Below are positions 7,167 through 58,689 of a DNA stretch of 64,000 bases, in pieces. Positions within the stretch are counted from its first letter, which is position 1; each line of letters opens with the position of its first letter. The stretch is from Armatimonadota bacterium (GTDB lineage Bacteria > Armatimonadota > DTGP01 > JAKQQT01). The notes below the pieces were generated by a model that saw only the letters and a program-made list of their open reading frames with translations, made no database searches and was not told the origin of the DNA. The stretch spans positions 1 to 64,000 of the forward strand of contig DASXVS010000007.1 in NCBI GenBank assembly GCA_036504095.1. The letters run 5' to 3'. The position numbers and the translations under genes were made by a program.

Positions 7167-8762
7167 TTACAGCCCCACAGACTGACGAAGCAGGCGTACG
7201 GCATCCAACAGGTCAACGCGGCCCGAAGCAACCGCATCCAGCGTGGCCGCATTGTTGCGGTTCACGATGGACATGCCGGCGGCTATCGCCAGGGCAGCGG
7301 CGGGTGCGTCGGGGGCCACGAACGACCATTGCTGATTGTCCCCTCCGCTCCACGCCCACTCATTGAGGAGGGTGCCTGGCAGAGTGCTGCTGTCCGGCAC
7401 GTTGATCGCCCCGCCGCCTCCCCTGGAAACAAGCCTCCAATAGCCATCCGTTGTCTGCTCGATGAGCCAACGCTGGCAGTTGTTGTTAAACCATGGATAC
7501 TGGTCGATGGCGGTTCCATTCCCGGTGTTGCAATTGTACAGGTCAACGACCTTTCCGCTTCCGGCGGACGTGATCCTGCAGTATCCGTCGAGCCCGGTCT
7601 GGGGGGTGCCGCCCACGGTGTTCATCACGTACCATTTTTGAAACGCGCTGCCGGTGTAGGCGCTCTGGTCCAGGGCCGCGCCGTCCGCGGTGCCGCTGTC
7701 GTGAACCGTGAGCGCGAGTCCGCTCGATTTGGAGATGATCTTGTACGTCCCGCCGGGCAGTTCGTATCCGGCGACCGGCCAGCCGTCCGAGCCCCACAGC
7801 AAGGTCTGGAGGTTCAGCGTGCTTGCGCCATAGTTGGTGCCGTCCGACTCCAGATGGTAAGTGAACCGCTCAATCGTGCCGTCGTTGTACACGCCCATAT
7901 GGCCCGGCCCGATTTTGTTGCCGGCCGAGGCGAGAAAAAGAGTCCCGCCGCCGCTCAGCAGGTTCTTGCCGGCCTTGTCCAGGTACGGCCCGGTGATGCT
8001 GGCGGAACGCCCCATCATGATGTGGTAGGTACTGTTCGCGCCCGCACAGCACGTTCCCGCGTTATAGAAGAGGTAGTAGTAACTGCCGTGCGGCAGAATG
8101 TACGACGCCTCGATGTTGCTGGAAGCGAGGTGGTAGATCGCCGAGGCCGGGGAGAGCCGCAGTCCGGTCGTGTTGTCCAGCCTTGTGAGACCGATGCCAT
8201 AGCCGTTGTAAGAACCGTAAACCAGCCACAGGTTCCCGCCGCTGTCGTAGACCGGCGCGGGGTCGATGCAGTTCGGGCCGGCGGTCGAGGTAGACGACTG
8301 CACGATCATTCCCTGATCGGTCCAGTGGTAGCTCGCGTCGCCGGGATCCAGCGTCGGATTCGTCATCAGCCCGATCACGGAATTGGGGCTGCCAAACGTG
8401 GAAAAGGACCAGTAGAGGTGGTACAGCCCGCCGAAATACACGATGTCCGGCGCCCAGCACACGTTTCCCGTATTTCCGGGCGAGGCGTTGCGCGCCCATT
8501 GAGGCACGCCGTTCGCGGAATCGTTGGCCGCGAGCACAGACTGGCCGTTGCTCCAGTGCACCAGGTCGACGGAATAGCGCATCTGGATGTTGGCCCCGGT
8601 GGCGTACACGTAGTACCGCCCGTTGCACTTGATGATCCGTGACGGGTCGTGTGTGCCGAACTGCCCCTGCAGGACGATGGCCGAAGCAGACGACATGGCG
8701 ATCCAGGCCGCCAGACCAGCGGCCACCAATCCGATCATCGAGGCGCGAAGGCGTTGCAGCAT
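7167..8762 (-). CDS. Secreted GH43 endo-1,5-alpha-L-arabinanase with ricin-type lectin domain and C-terminal dockerin-like module
   Basis: A 531-residue protein with a signal peptide (residues 1-28). Residues 30-350 form a GH43 five-bladed propeller: the expected catalytic acids are D39 (GTHDPSR), D167 (NCIDPAP) and E218 (NIEASYILPHG), and TGPYLDKAGK is typical of arabinan endo-1,5-alpha-L-arabinosidases, which cut the arabinan side chains of pectin. Residues ~360-485 form a ricin-B-like trefoil with QKW, QRW and QQW. The last ~50 residues are the two-part module shared with four other proteins here (APAAALAIAAG, then DAVRLLRQSVG). SD AAAGGAG precedes the ATG at 8762; the frame continues upstream but without homology. 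Divergent from the GH43-like gene at 8907. Confidence 0.9.
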   Translation of the reverse strand: MLQRLRASMIGLVAAGLAAWIAMSSASAIVLQGQFGTHDPSRIIKCNGRYYVYATGANIQMRYSVDLVHWSNGQSVLAANDSANGVPQWARNASPGNTGNVCWAPDIVYFGGLYHLYWSFSTFGSPNSVIGLMTNPTLDPGDASYHWTDQGMIVQSSTSTAGPNCIDPAPVYDSGGNLWLVYGSYNGYGIGLTRLDNTTGLRLSPASAIYHLASSNIEASYILPHGSYYYLFYNAGTCCAGANSTYHIMMGRSASITGPYLDKAGKNLLSGGGTLFLASAGNKIGPGHMGVYNDGTIERFTYHLESDGTNYGASTLNLQTLLWGSDGWPVAGYELPGGTYKIISKSSGLALTVHDSGTADGAALDQSAYTGSAFQKWYVMNTVGGTPQTGLDGYCRITSAGSGKVVDLYNCNTGNGTAIDQYPWFNNNCQRWLIEQTTDGYWRLVSRGGGGAINVPDSSTLPGTLLNEWAWSGGDNQQWSFVAPDAPAAALAIAAGMSIVNRNNAATLDAVASGRVDLLDAVRLLRQSVGL

Positions 8763-14700: not shown

Positions 14701-16145
14701 CGGCTCCGACGACCGATATCGCGCTGTTCCGGCCCGTGCTTGCGTATTCCTCCAGGGCCAATACGTCAAGTCTCCCCGGCAACGCCTTCGACGACGGCAA
14801 CACCAGGTGGACCACGGATTCCACAACGCCTGCCGGCACCAACCCGCGCGGATACAATTTCCCGCAGTTCCTGGTTGTTGACCTAGGCCAGACGTACGAC
14901 TTCTCCAAGATCAGCCAGATCGCGCTCCAGAGCTACAACAACGGGCCGGACCATTATCAGTGGCGGGTCAGCAACACACCGCCGCCTGCCAACCCCGACC
15001 TGTTCACGTACGTTGAAGCGGCCACCTACGGCACATTGCTCTACGACTCCCCGCAGAGCATCGGAGCCCGCTGGGCCCAGACACCCGGATATCAGGCCTA
15101 TATGGACCTGGTGACCGCGCCGCAGCTCAAGCCCGTCTTCGGCCGGTACCTTGAGCTCTACATCGACAAGTACTACGGCTTCAACACGAACTTTGATTTC
15201 TATGAGATCAAGGTCGAATCCCTACCAGTGACGATTACCGGCAAGGTCGTCGACAGTGCCGGCAACCCGGTTGCAGGCGCCAAGGTCGGCCAGTTCCCGG
15301 ATCCACCGGGCGTATGGACGACAAACGCTCTTGGTAACTTCACCGCCACGCTGCCGGGTACGGGAACGTACACCTTAACGGCGCACATCCCGTCGTCTAC
15401 CGCCGCCACCGTTCAGCCGTTGTCCACCCCCGGCACCCTCACGCCGTATCCGGGCATGGCCGGCCCCGTTCTGATGCTGCCCGCTGAGGTTCCAAACCTG
15501 GTTGTCTCAGTCCTCGCGGATCCGGCGCGCACCGACCTCCAGACTGCAGGAACCAACCTGCCCGCCGCGGCAGGCGACAAGGACTTCACCACAAAGTGGG
15601 AAACCGATATCATCGCCGAAGCGCCCCCGGCGCCAACCGTCTCCCTGGATAATCCGGTCCACATCACCGCCGACCTCGGATCCGCCCAGCCGTTCAACCA
15701 GGTGATTCTCAACTGGGAGTACGACACAACGGCGTTCCACGTCGTCAACGCCACCCAGGACTACTCCATCGATGTCTCCAACGACAACACAACCTTCACC
15801 CCGGTGTACACCACGTTTGGCGGCAATGGCGGGTACAGGGCCGACCTGACCACGACGAACTGGCGCCTCGTGGCGCCCATCAAGTTCCCGACGCAGACCG
15901 CGCGATACGTCCGATTGACCATGTCCGGCCACATCGGCGACATCCTCGGCATGTGGGAAATGCAGGTGGGCAACGCGCCGGCAACCGTCGCGCCGTTCAC
16001 CGTGGCGGACGTTCAGCGAGCCCTGCAGATTGCCTCCGGTTTCATCGTGGCAACACCTGCGGACATCTCGCGCCTCTCCAAGGACGGAGTCAAGATAACC
16101 ATCCCGGACGCCGTACGCATCGACAAGACGGCCAACGGCCATTGA
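11727..16145 (+). CDS. Giant secreted multidomain protein (DUF2341-like, CarboxypepD_reg, CBM/F5-8C domains) with C-terminal dockerin-like module
   Basis: A 1472-residue protein with an N-terminal hydrophobic signal (IATAFLLGIAGYYAAYAQ). In order: a DUF2341-like start (WADSNYRYRRPLTISN), a jelly-roll region (~60-330), a laminin-G/CBM-like region, a carboxypeptidase-regulatory-like fold at ~590-665 (LAGTVTDAATTAPIPGITV), a carbohydrate-binding-like domain beginning NGGFETP (~675-890), a second regulatory-like fold, an F5/8-type discoidin domain (~990-1160, NAFDDGNTRWTTDS), a third regulatory-like fold (ITGKVVDSAGNPVAGAKVG), a second discoidin domain (~1255-1420) and the shared terminal module (DVQRALQIASG, DAVRIDKTANG). 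It looks like a glycan-binding surface protein. SD GAGGAGAC precedes the ATG; a strong terminator follows. Confidence 0.85.
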   Translation: MTVSKGSRWIATAFLLGIAGYYAAYAQTPPWADSNYRYRRPLTISNTAGAAINTGDVLAYSYIPGYGPFDGKMSTKDIKIFWQPDNDITATHTDVKQAMVDLGATSAKILFSAKAPIAAGTPRPFAKGTDSSTFQETGTPQGLNADEEVRVLTIPFSFPFLGANYTKLTVSTNGWIAFESGLTDTHYGDLSLKNVLETRKFITPLGYDLDTSSYVTGADVFYDTSVAGQVTVRWKADTFTDTTVRAPRINTSVTLFSDGRVRLNYGSVVTPIANQEPPFGCDLGIATGNVKDDLLIHLPVPYDLSNHAPILFTPNPRNVVTDSTYYVYYGNSTDTGIRTPPDAANLTYYSFKTLPSSSAQGGWVAASGNPDTGTISRATITGGGSVMKVAPLTSTGMPLAIAAAGPDFTDQTIYTRLEPTGSGGVGIMARANANNQGYGFVLNDFANLDGVGTTTLEQGIIVRSSPANTPPDYTVISAHADGAVPTTNFANVILRVVGSAATSNIDVQAKSYLSGGIEPAGFQYETIPAAALPQLSSGKVGVTGSGGGGTVISVPQVNYVYVVPNGFAEYISVATGADNTEIQQPPPPGKGTLAGTVTDAATTAPIPGITVTITPSGGGTAITPAPTNNAGFYTLYLDPGTYNVSFASPGYTELIQTVSVVAAQTATLNGALVAPELVTNGGFETPDPAAPAYKPLGWYRRDYVTPVPAGETIPEPNPAGEVYNPGWRYVTNQGHTGTHCVELRGPFYISYPQTNGTPIISWEPEGTVLSINADPTSFGDCRSKGPMIPEASGATFHVTAWVKKVVDSGATAGGQAILRLRPDIGGDDPSVLLGGNSGVQISKDGSFDWTQLSYNFTVPSSVNGNFLQTRLYGSSLLDGNSVFWDDVSVHRIQLPVFRGSLHSSPAPDGTVTLLSGVTVGVREAGANGMSSPLASVDTDALGRWSLSFLPDPGVSYVVQAYPDVAYVNQHVSASANFPLQPATSVTDMTYDPAPTTDIALFRPVLAYSSRANTSSLPGNAFDDGNTRWTTDSTTPAGTNPRGYNFPQFLVVDLGQTYDFSKISQIALQSYNNGPDHYQWRVSNTPPPANPDLFTYVEAATYGTLLYDSPQSIGARWAQTPGYQAYMDLVTAPQLKPVFGRYLELYIDKYYGFNTNFDFYEIKVESLPVTITGKVVDSAGNPVAGAKVGQFPDPPGVWTTNALGNFTATLPGTGTYTLTAHIPSSTAATVQPLSTPGTLTPYPGMAGPVLMLPAEVPNLVVSVLADPARTDLQTAGTNLPAAAGDKDFTTKWETDIIAEAPPAPTVSLDNPVHITADLGSAQPFNQVILNWEYDTTAFHVVNATQDYSIDVSNDNTTFTPVYTTFGGNGGYRADLTTTNWRLVAPIKFPTQTARYVRLTMSGHIGDILGMWEMQVGNAPATVAPFTVADVQRALQIASGFIVATPADISRLSKDGVKITIPDAVRIDKTANGH

Positions 16146-24457: not shown

Positions 24458-26521
24458 ATGATGAGTTCAGTCCACCGTGGGAGCCTCTCGAGGCGCTCGG
24501 CCCCCACCTGCTCTTTCCGCGAGGCGATCGCCGCGGGATGGAGCAATTCGCAGGCGTGGCTGCAAGTACTCCTCGCTCTTCTCGGTATCTCTTCCGCCTT
24601 TCGAGCCGTCGCGGAGGAACAGCCCCAGTGGCGCCAGGTGCAGCCGCCTCCGCGTCTCCTCGCTTCCATGGCGTTTGATAGCCTCCGTGGAAAGGCAATC
24701 CTCTTCGGAGGCCTGAATGGAAGTGTCGCGCTATCCGATACGTGGGCCTGGGATGGGCGCACCTGGACGCAGGTGGCCACCACCGGTCCTCCCGCCCGCA
24801 ACGATGCGTCAATGGCCTACGACATCGCTCGCGATCGGGTGGTGCTCTTTGGCGGCTCAGGCGGCGCCGGTGGTCTCGCTGACACGTGGGAGTGGGACGG
24901 AAGCGCCTGGAAGCAGGTTGCCAGCACCGGACCGGTGGCATTGCACGCTGCTTCGATGGCGTATGATAGTGCGCGCGGCCGGACGGTGCTCTTCGGAGGC
25001 TATGCGGGCGGCTATCTTGCGGACACCTGGGAATGGGACGGGATTTCCTGGGCGAAGATTGCCGCCAATCGGCCTCCTGCCCGCTCAAGCGCCCCGATGG
25101 CATATGACAGTGCCCGAGGTAGAACCGTCCTTCACGGCGGCTATAGCGGTGGTCGCCTCACCGATACCTGGGAATGGGATGGAAGCGCATGGACGCAGGT
25201 CGCCACCACCGGGCCGACCTCCCGCGAATCCTCGTCTATGGCCTATGACAAGGCGCATGGCAGCATGATTCTCTTCGGAGGGTCCAATGGCAGTTATCTT
25301 GGCGACACCTGGGCGTGGAACGGGAGCGCATGGACGCGGGTTGCCACTACCGGTCCCCCCGCCCGCCTCTGCGCCTCGATGGCCGGAGACACAGTCCGGG
25401 GGAAGATCCTTCTCTTCGGAGGGTCAAATGGTGGGTGTCTCGCTGACACATGGGAGTGGGACGGGAGTGCGTGGAGCCTGGTGGCCGATGCCGGCCCTTC
25501 CGCCCGGTCATATTCCGCGATGGCATTTGATAGCGCTCGGGGAAAAACCGTGCTCTTTGGCGGATTGGATCCGGACAGTGTGAATCTGTACGATACGTGG
25601 GAGTGGAACGGCAATACATGGAAACCAGTCGCCATAACCGGCCCTCCTGGCCGGTACGCCGCAGCGATGGCGTACGACAACATCCGGGGGAAGACCGTCC
25701 TTTTTGGCGGGTATGGTAACAGCGGCCGTCTGGGCGATACGTGGGAATGGGACGGAAGCGCGTGGAAACAGAGGGAAGTGTCCGGGCCTCCGGCACGCGA
25801 CGTGGCGTGCATGGCCTATGACAGTGCGCGAGGCAGAATGGTCCTGTTCGGAGGCTTTGGGAGCAGCAGTCGCCTGAACGATACCTGGGAATGGGATGGC
25901 ACGATCTGGCGTCAGGTTGCTGTCGACGCGCTCGCACCGTGGCCCCGCGATTCGGCATCCCTGGCATACGACAGTTCACGGGGCAAGACCGTCCTCTTCG
26001 GAGGCTGGGATGACAGATATTATGGCGACACGTGGGAATGGGACGGGAGTTCATGGAGGCTGGCCGCTACATCCGGTGCGCCTGCACGCTCGATGGCATC
26101 ATTGGCGTACGACAGCATCCGGGGGAAAACCATCGTCTTCGGTGGTTGGGGGGCTGCCGGTCGTCTCTCTGACACGTTGGAGTGGGACGGAAGCACGTGG
26201 AAACCGACAACCACCGCCGGGCCTCCGGCGCGTTACTCCGCTGCGATGGCGTATGACAGCGCCCGAGGCAAGACCGTTCTCTACGGAGGGCAGGGTGTCG
26301 CCGGCCGCCTTTCGGATACGTGGGAGTATGGCGTATACAGGGTGTTCACCACGCAGGATGCGCTCGCATCTCTCCGAATCGCTGCGGGTATCACCGGGGT
26401 CAGCCAGGATGCGATGAAGACCCTGGACGTGGTGCAAAGTGGTTCATCGGCCGGCCGTGTTGACATGAACGATGCCGTGGCGATCGCCCGCAAGGCCGCC
26501 GGCCTCGATCCGAACCTGTAA
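24458..26521 (+). CDS. Secreted 12-repeat kelch-type propeller protein with C-terminal dockerin-like module
   Basis: A 687-residue protein (ATG at 24458 or 24461 after AAGGGG). A long, Arg-rich N-terminus leads to a hydrophobic stretch (WLQVLLALLGISSAFRAVAE), a probable signal sequence. Residues ~65-625 are twelve repeats of about 47 residues with the pattern PPAR..ASMAYDSARGKTVLFGG....L.DTWEWDG; twelve kelch blades would give two six-bladed propellers. The repeats are also visible in the DNA as ~141-bp units, implying recent duplication or gene conversion. The end is the shared module (DALASLRIAAG, DAVAIARKAAG, GLDPNL). Likely a surface protein binding ligands through the propeller. REP-like palindromes flank the gene. 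Confidence 0.85.
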   Translation: MMSSVHRGSLSRRSAPTCSFREAIAAGWSNSQAWLQVLLALLGISSAFRAVAEEQPQWRQVQPPPRLLASMAFDSLRGKAILFGGLNGSVALSDTWAWDGRTWTQVATTGPPARNDASMAYDIARDRVVLFGGSGGAGGLADTWEWDGSAWKQVASTGPVALHAASMAYDSARGRTVLFGGYAGGYLADTWEWDGISWAKIAANRPPARSSAPMAYDSARGRTVLHGGYSGGRLTDTWEWDGSAWTQVATTGPTSRESSSMAYDKAHGSMILFGGSNGSYLGDTWAWNGSAWTRVATTGPPARLCASMAGDTVRGKILLFGGSNGGCLADTWEWDGSAWSLVADAGPSARSYSAMAFDSARGKTVLFGGLDPDSVNLYDTWEWNGNTWKPVAITGPPGRYAAAMAYDNIRGKTVLFGGYGNSGRLGDTWEWDGSAWKQREVSGPPARDVACMAYDSARGRMVLFGGFGSSSRLNDTWEWDGTIWRQVAVDALAPWPRDSASLAYDSSRGKTVLFGGWDDRYYGDTWEWDGSSWRLAATSGAPARSMASLAYDSIRGKTIVFGGWGAAGRLSDTLEWDGSTWKPTTTAGPPARYSAAMAYDSARGKTVLYGGQGVAGRLSDTWEYGVYRVFTTQDALASLRIAAGITGVSQDAMKTLDVVQSGSSAGRVDMNDAVAIARKAAGLDPNL

Positions 26522-37474: not shown

Positions 37475-40400
37475 TCACGGATTGGGGTCGAGGCCCATGG
37501 CTTTCCGGGCGATGCGCGCGGCATCTACCACGCCGATCGGCGCGGAAGCCAGCCCGAGATGCGCGATGTCCACCGGCGTCGATGCCGTCAACCCGCCCGC
37601 GATGGCAAGCGCACGGGATGCATCCGGATCCCAAATGCGCCCGCCTCCACGTACTCGTACGCGCCGATATCAACGTGCGCGCCGATCTTGCGCGCGTTGC
37701 CGGCCAGATCGAGCGCGGCCAGGGTAACCACGCTGTCGTCTCCGGCATCGATACACGGCGAGCCGGCCTGAAGCTGGTAACCCTGCCCCGAACGGTTCAC
37801 GAAGAGCGGATCGACGGACAAGGTGCCCGGTGGAGCGCTGAGGCCGTTCCAGTCCGCGTCCGTGTTCCCGTACATGTCATTGTCGCTGTATGTCGTGTTG
37901 AGATTCAGCATCGTGATTCCGGATGAGTTGAACGCAACGATGTTGTTGGCGACGACGTCGGGTACCACAAGCCCTCCCCCGTATTCGATGCTTAAGGCGC
38001 CGCCTGGACCGGTGCCGATATCGGTCGCTTCGGCCGCCGAGGAGTTGCCGATGAACGTGTTGTTCAGCACCCTTGCGCCGGACTGTACGTCGGCTCCGCC
38101 TCCGAACGTTCCGGAGGTATTCTGGGTGATGAGGTTATCTTCTATCGTCGACGCAAGCATGATGCCTCCGCCGGCGAACGCCGATTTGTTGCCCTGGATG
38201 ACATTCCGGGAAACGAGGTCGCATGAGTAAGCGCCTCCTCCGGACTGCGTTGCGGTGTTTGCGGATATCGTGTTCCCGATGACGCTGCCCGCACCGTAGA
38301 CGCCGCCACCGATGTCGCTGGTGTTGCCCGTGATGACGTTCGCCTGGACATCTACCGAAGCGCCGGCAAACACCCCGCCACCGTGGCTGGGCGTCGATGA
38401 ACCGGAGGGAGGCTGATTGTTCCGGATTGTGTTCCGAGCGATCTCGCCGGTGGACGCAGCAGCGTAGATGCCGCCGCCTTGTGCGCCGGCGTTGTTCTCG
38501 ATAACGTTGTTGACTACGCTGAGAGTCACCGGCCCGCAGGTCATCCCGCCTCCGACCGCTTGATCGAGACCATTGACCACGTGGAAACCATCCAGGACAA
38601 AGGCGTCGAACCGGCCCGCCTCCGAGTCATCTACATAGATGCTGCTGCCAAGCAGATGGCCGTCAACGGCCGTCGCATTCGTCGCCCAGTTTCTCGCATC
38701 GCGGGTGACCTCCGTGCCGGCGAATCCGCCATACACCTGGACCGGCGCTCTCGCCGTGAGCGGCCCGTCGTATGTCCCGGACGACACCCAGATTTCGGCT
38801 CCACCCAGCGACCACGCGGTGTCCAACGCGTTCTGAAGCGTGCCCTTGGCGGTTGCCCAGGTGAGGCCGTCGTTCGTATCCGTGCCGGTTGATGATACGT
38901 GGAGCGGTCCACGCGTTGCCACCAGCGTGGCGCCAAGGCGCTCGAAAGCTCCGAGATCCACTGCCTTTCCCATCAGGCGTGGGAAGCCCTCCCGGTCGGT
39001 CGAGCTGCCCGGCACAAGACCCGAATCCCCAACATCGACGCAGGGTGAGGCCGGTCCCAGCCGGAAGTCGCCGATCGACGGATCTACGAAGCCTGGGTCG
39101 ATCGATATGTTGCCATCGCGGCCGGTTTCGCCCGGGATTCCGAGGTAGTCCCCGCCTCCATTCGCGTAGACGTCGTTGAATCGAACGGCAACCCTGGCTC
39201 CGTGAATGTCGATACCGGATTGGTTGTCAGCGACGATATTGTTCTCCAGCAGGATCCTCTGCGAGAAGCCGCCGCCGCCGCTCAGCGTAACGCAGCCGAG
39301 CGGTGACGTGTTCAGCGCGATCGTGTTGTTCTCAATCACGGAACTGCCGCCGATCGACAAGGCGGCGCCGTTCTGACCGGCCACGTTGTCCGTCAGAACG
39401 CAATCGCGCAGGAATCCAAGCGAGTTGGCGGACGCAACCGCACCACCGGACAGCGCCGAATCCAATCGGAATGTGCATCTCACCACAGTGCAGGCTGCCG
39501 TAGCGGAAATTCCGCCACCTCCTGCATTCGCGCTGTTTCCGGTAAAGACGCAGTCGGTAACCGATCCACCGCCGGCGAAACCGCCTCCATTCCCTCCTGC
39601 CACGTTCGCATCGAACACGCCGGACCTGATCTCCGCCGTCCCGCAAACACCGCCACCGTCCGTGCCGGCTGAGTTGCCGCGGAAGATATTCCCGGAGAGC
39701 AGCATGGGCCCTGCTGCAGCGTCCGAGCTTGCAGGCGGAGCGATGTCCACGCCGCCTCCCGTGAACACGGCAGTGTTCCCGCTAACGATATTGTCGGTAA
39801 GCACAGGCGACGACCCAACACAATACACGCCGCCGCCATGCTGCCCAGCGTTGTTGGAAATGATGTTACCGGCTATGTATGGCGACGCGCCGGCCGCCAC
39901 GTAGATCCCACCGCCGTCGCCGGCCTGGTAATAGTAAGCCACACTGTGGCAGCTCACGCTGCCGGTCATCGCGGAGTGTGCCGTGGAGTTTCCCGTGATG
40001 ACGTTGTTTGTGATGGTCGGAGATCCGCCCGGTACCATCACGGCCCCACCGCGGAATTCCAGATAGACCTTTCGCCACCCGCCCCCGTCGCGGCCGCTGC
40101 ATGCCCCCGACTGCGATGCAATCTGAACAGCCTTGCCCCCACCGTTCGTGATGGTGAAGCCGTCCACCATCGTCTCGGGAGTCGCCGCCATCGGCAGCAT
40201 AACGACTGTGGCCGACGCAGACGGAGCACTGGAGATACCGGGGCCCATCAGGATGGTTTTGTTACCGACAGGATCCCTCGCGCTGCCGGTTGCTTCGGTG
40301 TCCGCGAAGCCTCCCAGGAGCGAGACGCCGACGGGAATGGCAACGGACTCCGTGTAGGTGCCGGCGGCCACCCAGACTTCGTCGCCGGCAATAGACTTAT

Positions 40401-40557
40401 TCAGTGCGGCCTGGACGGTGGGGAAAGCAGACGTCCAGGTTAGCCCGTCCGGAGAAGCCGCCGTCGACCGCGAGTCGACGCGGAGAACGGACGCCTGCCC
40501 CGCTGCGGCGAGAGCGGCCCATAAGGTCAGCGCCGCAATGCGGCGGATTGTAACCAT
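37475..40557 (-). CDS. Secreted right-handed beta-helix protein, C-terminal dockerin-like module split off by a one-base frameshift
   Basis: About 1027 residues if the frame is repaired. MVTIRRIAALTLWAALAAAG is a signal peptide (CAGGAGA upstream). Two similar halves follow, each opening with a DUF1565-like block (DGLTWTSAFPTVQAAL / DGLTWATAKGTLQNAL and GVSLLGGFADTE / VQVYGGFAGTE) and continuing with parallel beta-helix rungs such as NNVITGNS and GGGVYC. The intact frame stops at 37588, soon after HVDIGAYEYVEAGAFGI. In another frame, from about 37635 down to a stop at 37475, the DNA encodes DASRALAIAGG, then DAARIARKAMG, then GLDPNP: exactly the terminal module of the paralogue at 55873. One missing base near 37632-37640 explains it. 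True mutation or sequencing error cannot be decided here. Confidence 0.8.
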
Positions 40558-40786
40558 TGGTTCTGTCTCCTGGCCAAACTGGGCCGGCCCAACGAACCAG
40601 CCCCTAAGAATAACTGTGATAAGTAGACCCACATAATTGGCCGTATTCTCATCCCCATGTTGAGTCGTCACCAAACCCCGACCGGGCGGTATGGTGTAGT
40701 CGGGCGCCAGGTTTCCTGCTGGAATGAAGGTGGGGGTCACGTCCGGGGTCTGATACTCCGACAGCAACTACTCAGAGGAGGCAAAA

Positions 40787-44840: not shown

Positions 44841-44904
44841 AATACCCGAACGTGCTGGGCAAACGTGGAGCGCCGTCTCATACGACGCGGTGAAAGGAAT
44901 CGCC

Positions 44905-47900
44905 GTGAAGACAGTAGATTTCGCCGAACGCAAGTTCGCTCCCCCCCCCCCCTCCGCCTGCTTGCTGTACTTAGCATCGTGGGCCTTCTCTCCGTAGACG
45001 CCCCCGCCACACCCCCCACACCGTGGCAAGGCTCTGACCTTCCCACGCCATACACCACCGTGAACACTCTAACGGGTTCTGCCTGCACGGCTGTGCCCCT
45101 CGCTGGTTGGAAGGGCCGCGGTTTGTCAGTGGCCCTCGCATATTTCCACAACGACTCGCCCTACACTGGAACGCCGGAATGGCGCCACTCCTACGATTAC
45201 CAACTGCTTCCGCTGGAAGACGACGGATGGCGCCTCGTTGAACCGAACGGCCTCACGAAGGATTTCACTTACGCAGACGGTTTCGTCGAGGTAGCAGGAT
45301 ACTTCGATAAGCTCTATATCTCGGCGAACTATTCAAATGCACTCTCGGAGCTGACTGTCGAGAGAAAGAACGGCACGCGCCTCATCTTTGCCTCCCTGGA
45401 CCCTGCTGCGGAAGATCCCATTGGGCCGGATACACCGATTGGCGTCGAAAGTGAGGACCCGCCTCTCCTATTACGCCAGATAGTGGATCGGAACGGGAAC
45501 GCCATCACCCTTCATTACGGGACTGGATCCTACGCGGCGAGGCTGAATCAGGTAACAGACCCTACCGGCCGGAACCTTAACTTCAGCTACAACGGCGCAA
45601 CCACCACCATTACTGACCCATCTGGGCAGACCTGGACCGTTAGCCGCGGGAGCGCGGCGGAAATCACCAGCATCGTCAACACCCCGGCCACAACGTCGCC
45701 GGCCACAAGCCCGTCCAGCAGAACGTTTAGCTTCACTTATAACACCAACCACACCATCGCCGCGATGCGGGACTGGAAGACCAACGCCACCCGCACTGGT
45801 CAAAACGCAAGCGACACAACCTACTCCTATACCTATAATTCGGGAGTCATTTCCCGTGTTGACGGGCCGAGCTGGCTAACGGCCAACGAACGGCCTGCCA
45901 CGGCATATTCCTTCAGCGGAAATCCGCAGACGACAACCATCGGCCAGAAAACGGGCTACACCGGCAGCGCTGATACTTTCAGCACCACAACGCAGCTTTA
46001 CCTTACAACAGGGGAATTGGGCACGGTAACGAAGTGGATGGGCTCCAGCAGCAGCCAGAACGATCCACACACCGATTACACATATACCGACAACCACCTT
46101 CCGGCAGGAATGGCACGGTCAACAGGAGGCGAAGTTAACATTGACTACGTCGATACGTCAACAGGCGACATTTCCAAAGTCTATCCGATGGGCACTGTCA
46201 ATGGAATTACGTATACATATTCCGACGCAAATAACCCTCACCTTCCGACGCTCGTAAACGACATGTGGGGGTGGGGCACAATCTACAAATACGATCCTTG
46301 CGGTAACTTGACCGATGTCTGGGATGCGAACCACACCGCACAGGCGCCGGATCCGGCAGATGATGCCGATCCCGATTTGACCCGCCTGCACACACACTAC
46401 AAGGTGGATTCGCACGGGCAGATTTTCGCGGCATCCAACACTGCCGTGAGGGCATACACGTTGAACAGCCAGGACACTGACGCCGATCCCATGCCCAATC
46501 AGTGGCGATACCACTACGATAGCCATGGGAATCTGGATAAGGTGTGGCGGCCGAATGGCACGCCATCTGGGACTTGGTATTCCACGACTACGCCGGACCA
46601 GACGGCTCACTACATTTCAGCCCTATCGCGTCGTGACTGGTCCAAGAAATCCTCGACCGATGCGCAGGTCAACTTTCACTACGATGGATACGAACGTCTG
46701 AAGGGGATTGACATCGATAACACGGCGGGCGATGAGATCACATATTCGTATGATGAGAACCATTTGCTCGCCGGGATGGTCGATCCGACGGGAGCCACGT
46801 CTTGGACGCTGGACGCCCTGAACCGCGTCACGCAGGAAGGCAAAGACAGCGGTACTCTGGGCTGGACCTACCGTGCCGATGGCCAGCTCAACACGTTCAC
46901 CAATCGCGACAACGTCACCACAGCGTTCACTTATACCGATGGTGGTCTGCTGGACACGGCAACGGGTCCGTGGGGCACAGGCAATCCCGTTGAATTCCTG
47001 CACCGCGAATGTGCGTGCAGCGGTAATGTTGACGGAGTAAACTACCCGGGTGATCCTGGTATTGCATGGCGCAACGCCGCCGATGCCTACGGTGGGTCGC
47101 ACGGAGGCATCTATTACGAACGGGATAGCAATCCTCAGCACGAATACAATGCAGCGATCGACCCCCAACTGTTCTGGGAGAAGATACATACGCTGACTCT
47201 GAACGAATTTGGGCAGGATCCATCTGCCGTCAAGATGATTCAGAGCAGCGGACCGGACAACCTCTCACGTGTCGAGATGTTCAGTGACACCGTCGATCCG
47301 CTTCATCGAACTACGGACGACGAAGTCTCATACGTGACATACTTCGATCCTCAGAACCCGGAGACCCAGACGCTGGGCGACGCTATCAGTACCCGATCCT
47401 ATACGTTCGACGACACCGGCAGTCCCGGCAACCGTTACCAAGTCCGGAACGCCGGCAATTCCTTGCTGGAGACATACTCCTTCGATTCCCTTGGGCGCAA
47501 CCGGCTGGACACTGTGGCGTACCCAGATTATGTTACCGACTACTACTCATATGACGCCGCCGGCAACGTAAGCGACGTATACTCAACCCCTAGTGTCGGC
47601 GACCGAATCTACACGTCCGATGCTTTGAACCACCTGGCATCCATCCAAGCCCCTGATGCTCCCGGCTACGGGCGCGTACAGTTCGTATTCGACGGTTTGG
47701 GGCGGCTTGCTCAGGTCAAAGACGATTACGGTACCCTCATTGGTCGATTCTACTATGCGGGTAACCGCCTGGTGTATCAGGACGACGGCCAGAACTACAC
47801 TTCAGTCTCGTACCAGTGGGCAGGCGGCAGGCTCCTGTCGCAGCAGCAAAACAGCGCCATCTTCTGGTACTTGCTGGACACTCGCGGCGACGTCGTTGCG

Positions 47901-48737
47901 TTAGTCGATGCTTCTAATAATCTCGCGGCGCATTACGTGTACGACGCATTCGGGCAGGAACTTCAGGACAGTTTCGAAGGCGACGAGATCCTGGTCCCCA
48001 ACCCCCTCCGGTATCGCGGAAACATCGGCTACATGCAGGTCTTCCAGTCTTCAGAAGGTCCGGCTTTCTCCCTCTATAATGTCGGCGCCCGCACCTACCA
48101 TACCGGCACCGGGCGGTGGATGCAGGAAGATCCCCTTCTTGGCTTCCAGTCTGATCCTCTCTCGTTCAACCGATACCTGTATTGCAACGCTGATCCAGTC
48201 TTGGCATCAGACCCAAGCGGACTTGCGCCATTCAATTATGGAATGGCGCCAAGTTGCTTTGGTTCATTCGTCCCCTGCAACCCAAATGACCCGGCTGATC
48301 AACCACCAGGATGGTGGGGGTACGTGGGGGCCGGCGCGGGTGTTTCCATCGGCGCTTACGGATTAGGAATGCTCGGCATTTCCGCGGCTGCGGCCGCGGC
48401 CGGCACAGGCGGCGCGGTTGAGACTGCAACAACGGCGGGAACCTCTGCAGGGGGTTATATGGGTTTGGGTAGCCTTATCACCGGAGTCGGCACCGAAATT
48501 GCGGCGGCGTTCGACAAAAAGTCCAATGAGCTCTTCTGCGCGATGGTGGACGCGGTCGCCAGGGCCATGATACTCGGTGACAAGTTGCCTAAGAACCTAG
48601 TGTTTCCTAATATCGTCGCGTTCGGTTTCTTGCGTTGTTGTGTTCGCGTGGCCCCAGAGTGCCTATCGAAGACCGCTTCGTGGCATATGGCGGAACGAGG
48701 AAGGGCAGAGAGCGCCGAACTCACTGCCCTTCCATAG
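44905..48737 (+). CDS. RHS/YD-repeat protein, start separated from the body by a C12 tract (phase-variable or miscounted)
   Basis: About 1277 residues if in frame. The best start is GTG at 44905 (MKTVDFAERKFA), with AAAGGA six bases upstream. It runs into twelve Cs (44941-44952); in this sequence the frame then ends at a TAG near 44997. Adding one C (or removing two) gives PPPPLRLLAVLSIVGLLSV, a good signal peptide, and the long RHS frame. The alternative GTG at 44865 has no Shine-Dalgarno. The body has YD repeats (YHYDSHGNLDKVW, YSYDENHLLAGMVDPTG), the RHS core ending (GARTYHTGTGRWMQEDPLLG, NRYLYCNADPVLASDPSGL), then a Gly/Ala-rich hydrophobic region and a ~100-residue C-terminal tip I do not recognise. 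Such tips are often toxins. Confidence 0.8.
44941..44952 (+). repeat. Poly-C tract (12 C) in the RHS signal-peptide region
   Basis: The longest homopolymer in the window. 13 or 10 Cs would join the SD-equipped start to the RHS frame; 12 does not. Confidence 0.9.
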
Positions 48738-55783: not shown

Positions 55784-55872
55784 GTTGTCCGTTGCCACTC
55801 GTCTTCACAAGGGAGCATCGTTGCCCATCGGGAGCCCCACGGGCAGCCAAAACGTCGAAGAGGAGAACCGCT

Positions 55873-58689
55873 GTGCGCAGAACCTCCAGAGCCCTCGCCG
55901 GACTCGCCGGTATTCTGATCGTCGGCCCCGCCGGCGCTGCCACCGTTTACGTCAACCGCGATGCGCCAGGCGTCATCCAGGACGGCGCAACCTGGCAGAC
56001 CGCTTTCATCACCATCCAGCCCGCCCTGGACGCGGCCAAGCCGGGCGACGAAGTCTGGGTAACCGGCAACCGGTATGCCGGAGGCCTCACGCTCCGCACC
56101 CCGCATGTGGCTTTGTATGGCGGCTTCTCCGCCGGTGACACGAACAAAGACCGGCTGAACCCCTCATTCCAAACGCGAATCCTGCCACTCAACGCCGATC
56201 CGCTGGTAACCATCACACCGGAAGCGCTCGGCGCCGTCTGGGACAACTTCGATCTGGCACGCGGCGAAGACAGCATGTGGGCGCACTGGGCTACCATCCC
56301 TGGCCCCGGAATTATCATCCAGGCGGCCGATTGCACAATCAGACGTGACACGATCCATGGCTGCGGCGCCATCAATGCCGAATCCGGAGGCGTCTCTTGC
56401 ATGGCAGGTTCCTCGGCGACGTTCGCGGAATGCATCATCTGCAACAACACGGCGAGGGACGGCGGCGGCATCGTCGCGAAGGGCGCCGTGCTGACCGTCG
56501 TCAACAGCACCGTGCGGGAAAACGACGCGATGGCTTCCAGCACGAACGCGCCCGAGTACATCTGGGATGGCCGAGGCGGGGGAATCGCGGTACTGGGCGG
56601 GTCGGCCAACATCGTCCACACAACGATTACCGGAAACGTCTCCCGGCACGGGGGCGGATTGTGGGCCGATGGCGCCGCCGTTTCCTTCGCGCGCAACTGG
56701 GTGGAGGACAACGCCGCCCTTCGCGAATCGCCCAGCAATATGGGGATGGTCGTTCAGGTCTCCGGTGGCGGTGTCGGGCTGAGTAACTGCACCGCGGACG
56801 TCCGGAACAACGTGTTCGCACTGAACATGGTCTATGGCGACGCCCTGCCCGGCATCTTCAGCGTTGCCGAGGTGCAGGGGGGCGGACTTGCTTTCATCGG
56901 CGGAAGCGGGAGCGTCGTCAACAATACGTTCGTCGGCAACCTGGCCAGCGCTATTGGGCTGCAGTTCAGCGGTAATGGATCCACGTGTATGGGTGGCGGA
57001 GCCTCGATATGGGCGACCGCGAACGTGGCCAACAACATCTTCTCTGACAACCGAGCCACGCTTGAGCCTGACTCCACGGCGTACGGTAACGCGCTGGCAT
57101 CAAACGGAACCGTTCAGGCGTTCAACCTGTATGATACGAATGTCGTGTCGGACCCTTCGCCCAGCCCGTTCGAACACGGCTCCATAGAAGCGAACCCGAT
57201 GTTCCAGGCGGGGTCGCCCCGGTATAAGCCCATCACCACATCTCCGGCAGTGGACGGTGGGGAGGCGAGCTTCGTGCACCCCGGTGAGGTAGATATTACC
57301 GGCGCGTCCCGTATTCAGGGCCTGCGTGTGGACATGGGGGCCTACGAGGCGGCCACGCCGCCTGGTCCCAGCCGTGTTTACGTTTCTCCGTCCGGCAGCG
57401 ACGCTAACGATGGGACCACTTGGGCGACCGCCAAACAGTCCATCAGGGCTGCGTTGAGGGCCGTCGCGATGGACGGCGCCGTGTGGGTGCGTGAAGGTGT
57501 GTATCAGGCAGGCTTAGACATACCCAGCCACGTGTCGTTGTACGGCGGCTTTCAGGGCGCCGAAGACCGGTTGGAACAGCGGGACTACTTCCACCACGCC
57601 TCCGTCATCGCGGGAGATGGCGGAGGAACGCTTATCTCCATCTCCAGCACCGCGCAGACCGTCCGAGTGGACGGGTTTACGATCCGCGGCGGAGGCGCAA
57701 CGGGTGACATGGGTGCTTACAGTGCTAGCGGAATCACCAGTGCCGGGAAGGACGTGGTTATCGTCAACAACACCGTCTCGGATATCGCCGCCAGCTACTA
57801 CGAGGACAACCCATCGGCATGGGCAAGCGGTATCAACGCAGGCGGCGGTCCAGTGACGATCGCGAACAACTCCGTCCGGAACGTCAGCGCCACGGCCATC
57901 CAGGGAATGACGTATCCGCAGTTTTCCAACTACGCCTCCGCCTATGCGGTCGGCATCACCGTGGGCGGAGGAGACGTGACCGTTGCCAACAACGTCGTCG
58001 CGGGAGTCACCGCCAGGGTTGGCGGCGCCCCTTCCAATTTCGGGGTCGAGGCGGACGGTATCGCCGGTGGCAACATAGCGGGACGGATCGTGAATAACAC
58101 AATCGTGAACAGCCATGGATCAGCTGTCTTCTTCAGCTACCCGGCTCCGGACGCGTACGGCTATGGCATCTCTCTCGGAGGAAACACCACGGGTCTCACG
58201 GTGGCGAACAATGTCATCGCTTACAACTCAACTGGCGTGAGCGCCTCATCAACCGATGCATTCAGTCACAATTGTTTCTACGGCAACATCTATGGCAGTG
58301 CCACCGGAGGCGCGGATCCCATAGGCGTCAACGGCAATATCCTCGCCGATCCGCTGTTTGCGAGCCTGGGAGCCGGCGACTATCACCTGCAGCTTCTATC
58401 GCCGTGTGTGGACGCGGGCGATAACGCAGCCGTCTGGGGCGACACGGACCTGGACGGGCGCACTCGCGTCATCGCCGGCACGGTCGACATCGGAGCGTAC
58501 GAGACAACGTACGCAGCGGCATACACCATTGCGGACGCAGCCAGCGCGCTGCGCATTGCGGCCGGCTTAAGTGCGCCGAGTCCGGCGCTCGTGGGGCGTC
58601 TAAACGTAGCGGGGGATAACAGCCGCGTGGATGTGGCTGACGCCGTGCTGCTGGCGCGAAAGGCCGTCGGCAAAGACCGAAACCCGTAA
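55873..58689 (+). CDS. Secreted right-handed beta-helix protein with intact C-terminal dockerin-like module
   Basis: A 938-residue protein starting at GTG (RRTSRALAGLAGILIVGPAG; AGAGGAGA upstream), with a signal peptide. Like its paralogue at 37475 it has two halves, each opening with a DUF1565-like block (DGATWQTAFITIQPAL ... VALYGGFSAGDT and DGTTWATAKQSIRAAL ... VSLYGGFQGAED) and continuing with beta-helix rungs containing NNT and GGG motifs. Such proteins often bind or cleave acidic polysaccharides. The end is the shared module (DAASALRIAAG, DAVLLARKAVG, GKDRNP). It shows how the frameshifted paralogue should end. A long heptamer array follows. Confidence 0.88.
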   Translation: MRRTSRALAGLAGILIVGPAGAATVYVNRDAPGVIQDGATWQTAFITIQPALDAAKPGDEVWVTGNRYAGGLTLRTPHVALYGGFSAGDTNKDRLNPSFQTRILPLNADPLVTITPEALGAVWDNFDLARGEDSMWAHWATIPGPGIIIQAADCTIRRDTIHGCGAINAESGGVSCMAGSSATFAECIICNNTARDGGGIVAKGAVLTVVNSTVRENDAMASSTNAPEYIWDGRGGGIAVLGGSANIVHTTITGNVSRHGGGLWADGAAVSFARNWVEDNAALRESPSNMGMVVQVSGGGVGLSNCTADVRNNVFALNMVYGDALPGIFSVAEVQGGGLAFIGGSGSVVNNTFVGNLASAIGLQFSGNGSTCMGGGASIWATANVANNIFSDNRATLEPDSTAYGNALASNGTVQAFNLYDTNVVSDPSPSPFEHGSIEANPMFQAGSPRYKPITTSPAVDGGEASFVHPGEVDITGASRIQGLRVDMGAYEAATPPGPSRVYVSPSGSDANDGTTWATAKQSIRAALRAVAMDGAVWVREGVYQAGLDIPSHVSLYGGFQGAEDRLEQRDYFHHASVIAGDGGGTLISISSTAQTVRVDGFTIRGGGATGDMGAYSASGITSAGKDVVIVNNTVSDIAASYYEDNPSAWASGINAGGGPVTIANNSVRNVSATAIQGMTYPQFSNYASAYAVGITVGGGDVTVANNVVAGVTARVGGAPSNFGVEADGIAGGNIAGRIVNNTIVNSHGSAVFFSYPAPDAYGYGISLGGNTTGLTVANNVIAYNSTGVSASSTDAFSHNCFYGNIYGSATGGADPIGVNGNILADPLFASLGAGDYHLQLLSPCVDAGDNAAVWGDTDLDGRTRVIAGTVDIGAYETTYAAAYTIADAASALRIAAGLSAPSPALVGRLNVAGDNSRVDVADAVLLARKAVGKDRNP

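Follow-up and report, generated by a model that had tools for sequence, protein, structure and literature searches.

Our analysis of a 64,000-nucleotide stretch of Armatimonadota DNA (the window) shows a single indel-type break that lies between the choice-of-anchor Q domain of a beta-helix protein and the C-terminal module that follows it, leaving the protein without its module. We consider it probable that a chance indel, arising either as a mutation in the cell or as an error in the assembly, severed a dockerin-derived C-terminal surface-retention tag from this protein. The features at the break are as follows.

37588..40767, minus strand: severed beta-helix protein, long open frame (frame reading; Beta_helix PF13229 match)
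37651..37782, minus strand: choice-of-anchor Q domain (NF041518), residues 996-1039, ending in DIGAYEY
37625..37650, minus strand: linker holding the frame change (frame reading)
37588..37650, minus strand: end of the long frame, read out of register, with its stop (frame reading)
37475..37627, minus strand: severed dockerin-derived C-terminal module and its stop (-1 frame; profile and homologue comparison)

The long minus-strand frame extends from 40767 to 37588 and comprises 1059 codons when counted from the first TTG. The true start of the protein is likely the ATG at 40557, where the encoded sequence (MVTIRRIAALTLWAALAAAGQA) resembles a signal peptide as judged by eye. The body matches Beta_helix (PF13229; E 8.4e-19), indicating a right-handed beta-helix, and is followed at its C-terminal end by the choice-of-anchor Q domain, which scores 76.3 bits against NF041518 (cut-off 25) over residues 996-1039. 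A TGA at 37588-37590 closes the frame after DIGAYEYVEAGAFGIRMHPVRLPSRAG. The codons of the module (DASRALAIAGG...GLDPNP) are found in the -1 frame with respect to the long frame; this second frame is open from 37669 to 37475, terminates at a TGA at 37475-37477 and overlaps the long frame by about 80 bases. A sequence-only reading of this DNA had reported the same two stops, and our re-reading gave the same result. Because DIGAYEY ends at 37651 and the module's conserved DA begins at 37624, we place the frame change in the 26-base linker 37650-37625, an interval that contains the position near 37632-37640 proposed earlier. Third-position GC content does not discriminate among frames (0.776 for the module frame versus 0.729 and 0.604 for the others). 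A search of a plasmid collection gave no match.

To assess the severed protein we compared its body and its module as two separate pieces, with no base re-inserted. We found that the module is undecayed, as the sequence-only reading had proposed from its codons: a profile built from 70 module copies recovered it from its own genome at E 6.9e-18, its leave-one-out score of 62.7 bits ranked 48 of 75 (range 25.7 to 88.4), and it retains 24 of 30 majority columns, a number exceeded by only five of the 70 copies. Comparison with close relatives had been suggested as a check. The best homologue of the body is a protein of a sister genus (L126 in genome G001), 980 amino acids in a single frame, in which body and module are collinear: the alignment covers body residues 3-975 and then module residues 7-55. 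This is the closest homologue of the severed protein; neither a closely related orthologue nor a second assembly of the species was found. Given the E value in the own genome and the collinearity of L126, the match to the module is not due to chance, and the existence of intact copies such as L126 identifies the fused form as the expected one.

The severed module is one member of a C-terminal family of roughly a hundred copies, most of which lack calcium loops. The genome that holds the window (G000) comprises 4.68 Mb in 80 contigs and is 98.6% complete. Using the severed module as a query, we obtained 78 places in this genome and judged 75 to be real, three (C24:145279, C40:17305 and C80:51200) being dropped as false by eye. 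Besides the severed copy, the window itself holds four modules that are read in frame.

55792..58689, plus strand: intact choice-of-anchor Q paralogue whose module is read in frame (domain scan)
58516..58686, plus strand: the paralogue's in-frame module, YTIADAASALRIAAG (module search)
26339..26518, plus strand: in-frame module of another window protein (module search)
15990..16142, plus strand: in-frame module of a 1472-aa F5/8-type C protein (module and domain search)
7170..7322, minus strand: in-frame module of an arabinanase-like protein (module and domain search)

Near the break, at 44865-48737, the window also encodes a 1290-aa RHS-repeat protein (PF05593), which is not among the five window genes in which a module was detected.

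In 71 of the 75 copies the module lies no more than 20 residues from the stop codon, and of the 72 frames with an observed stop, 38 terminate in NP. The proteins that carry it are unrelated and mostly of extracellular type: a Pfam scan of the bodies ahead of all 75 modules found beta-helix (12), CarboxypepD_reg (8) and Kelch (4) domains as well as single GH53 and RCC1 matches, and Choice_anch_Q stands just upstream of the module in 21. A signal-peptide rule was passed by 47 of 53 module frames, but also by five of nine window controls, and thus does not discriminate. For the alignment used to build the profile we retained 70 copies, omitting four that were not C-terminal or were cut off and one that was short.

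Profile comparisons indicate that the module descends from the type I dockerin (PF00404) and that its calcium loops have mostly been lost. Aligned with hhalign, 17 loop-less copies matched seven dockerins of the same genome with a probability of 98.3% and E 1.3e-14 over 47 columns; the score was 66.8, and none of 60 column-shuffled controls exceeded 25.4. Loops of the DxNxDG type are rare among the 75 copies (the first in seven, the second in four, both in one), and the severed module has neither. Pfam Dockerin_1 matches six of 70 modules at E<=0.1; a Pfam search gave no family for the severed module (E<=1) or for the paralogue's module (E<=0.1). No NCBIfam model fits the modules, and none of the sorting-signal models in that library matches any of the 70. 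Nor did we find a membrane-spanning stretch in the 70 modules at a 19-residue mean hydropathy of at least 1.6 (the highest value was 1.56). A PDB profile search returned dockerins as its best two chains, at non-significant E values of 0.035 and 0.097. The predicted structure of the module has three helices and is of modest confidence (AF2 with a six-sequence input; pLDDT 70.8, pTM 0.39), and its top Foldseek match was the dockerin 1ohz_B, but at E 2.3; with VIA-align the same dockerin reached Z 2.2, a value that homeodomains equalled and 2af7_D surpassed (2.8).

The distribution of the module among relatives suggests when the loops were lost. At E<=0.01, the profile matches at least 105 places in the genome of the window (223 candidates, of which the best 105 were scored and all 105 matched), at least 92 in G001, a member of the same family but of the sister genus (105 candidates scored), and at least 61 in G002, which belongs to the same class but lies outside the family (105 candidates scored). 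Apart from these three, three of 61 genomes searched have one weak match each, and in a survey of the phylum at E<=1e-6, at least seven of 291 genomes match, with at most the best 22 candidates scored per genome. Dockerin_1 matches at E<=0.001 number 53 in G002 versus 15 in G001. The six G002 modules that we read mostly keep their loops, whereas the seven read from G001 do not; five of these seven have the NP ending. The simplest history for these three genomes would be that the calcium loops were lost in this family after it diverged from other members of the class. Cohesins over the cut-off are few: one in G000, none in G001 and four domains in G002. The sole G000 cohesin protein (L087 1000-1782, on contig C24) is 260 amino acids long and itself ends in a dockerin-type module with a calcium loop. 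Among the papers listed on dockerins in Armatimonadota or Armatimonadetes, mostly non-subscription, no title or abstract opening describes the module.

How, then, did the frame come to be broken? The sequence-only reading had offered a recent shift, an assembly error, or a switch, programmed or phase-variable, by which the protein alternates between an anchored and a released form. The last of these we regard as very improbable. In its favour, the change is in the -1 direction and the two frames overlap, but we found no in-phase slippery heptamer (X XXY YYZ) in the linker, no repeat that would mark slipped-strand phase variation (the longest run within 37690-37590 is 3 bases), and no RNA structure there that folds better than shuffled sequences (z 0.58). 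Moreover, L126 reads through in one frame, and the severed copy is the only one of the 75 own-genome modules to be cut off by a change of frame; no second case appeared among these copies, nor did the short frames inspected in G001 yield one. In that search, C2:197503, C48:136450, C63:16928 and C71:338778 from the own genome and L119, L120, L121, L123 and L125 from the sister genus were rejected as further severed modules: each has the appearance of a small secreted protein that is complete. The frames of L118, L122 and L124, also from the sister genus, extend past contig ends. As a single case among 75 modules that lacks any signal for a programmed shift or for slippage, the break is most simply an ordinary indel, and we infer that it reflects either a chance mutation or a mistake in the assembly rather than a switch.

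Each of these two origins is nearly an even proposition. If the assembly is at fault, the gene is intact in the cell and the break is confined to the contig. A module that keeps all its key residues undecayed would fit this explanation, as would a single isolated indel in an assembly of 80 contigs, yet long homopolymers, which would make an error of this kind more likely, are absent from the linker. A real frameshift mutation, whose chances we likewise put only just below one half, would yield a truncated, unanchored protein, either an early pseudogene or a released form. The same genome does contain other module debris, a 5'-truncated fragment at C80:139129, and the absence of decay so far would make the mutation recent; against it, the long body frame likewise shows no sign of decay. 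The fragment in question (L085 2437-2797) is the other bodiless copy, a 5'-truncated choice-of-anchor Q fragment with its module intact. It lies directly behind another module-bearing gene.

We propose that the module is a dockerin-like helical pair that would bind a partner at the cell surface and so serve as a C-terminal surface-retention tag. This reading is supported by where the module sits, by its many copies, by the unrelated bodies ahead of it and by its descent from dockerins. If the module is such a tag, the module-less product of 37588-40557 would leave the cell without being retained on the surface. The anchoring role implied for the module by the sequence-only reading is plausible, as suggested by the choice-of-anchor Q ending and the dockerin descent, while a switch between anchored and released forms is unsupported. 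Alternatively, the module might not be a docking tag at all but a cap that passively aids the folding or stability of beta-helix and propeller proteins. We think this unlikely: the module does come after many repeat-type bodies, but it is also found behind glycosidases, lectins, metalloproteases and short proteins with repeats, and the domains to which it is related serve in docking. Taking the retention-tag reading further, we tentatively suggest, as a possibility that falls somewhat short of an even chance, that in this Armatimonadota family the entire dockerin secretome has become a tagging system that works without calcium, read by a surface receptor or export machine other than a classical cohesin. 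Such a system would comprise about 100 unrelated extracellular proteins per genome that share the same loop-less C-terminal module, often ending in NP.

The position of the putative tag resembles that of known sorting signals. In choice-of-anchor domain proteins, the domain is followed by an LPXTG, PEP-CTERM or T9SS C-terminal signal, and where the module follows Choice_anch_Q it occupies the place of that anchor signal. In contrast to those signals, the module matches no sorting model and contains no membrane-spanning stretch. Like the type I dockerin, to which its profile-profile homology is clear, it is a predicted two-half helical unit at the C-terminus of secreted proteins, and a few copies still score as Dockerin_1; it differs in that most copies lack calcium loops, about half of the frames share a set ending in NP and cohesins are nearly absent. 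A non-cellulosomal system of cohesins and dockerins, the 'planctosome', has been proposed, and its cohesin-dockerin pairs are assumed to be calcium-dependent (PMC6461901). Both systems place dockerin-type modules on extracellular proteins that are not cellulases, whereas most modules of the present family have lost the loops and there are hardly any cohesins to pair with.

As a frameshift the break is unremarkable, but it exposed a C-terminal module for which the Pfam and NCBIfam libraries consulted have no model of its own, and which a single genome carries on perhaps a hundred proteins of secreted type. If the module is a calcium-free offshoot of dockerins, it would offer a test of how cohesin-dockerin pairs drop calcium and switch partners, and a starting point for learning by what means an uncultured phylum keeps its secretome on the cell.

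Modules also terminate a set of small, secreted-looking proteins (L065, L082 and L116 in the own genome; L119, L121 and L123 in G001), most of which consist of tandem repeats resembling AVSREVS or AVGREFTVFN ahead of the C-terminal module. Three of the larger proteins encoded upstream were scanned and gave no convincing Pfam match. Each of the small proteins lies directly downstream of such a larger gene, whose product has a conserved C-terminus (..VNVPxxWxVxLRVxP..VSGD..), and the two together form a recurrent two-gene cassette.
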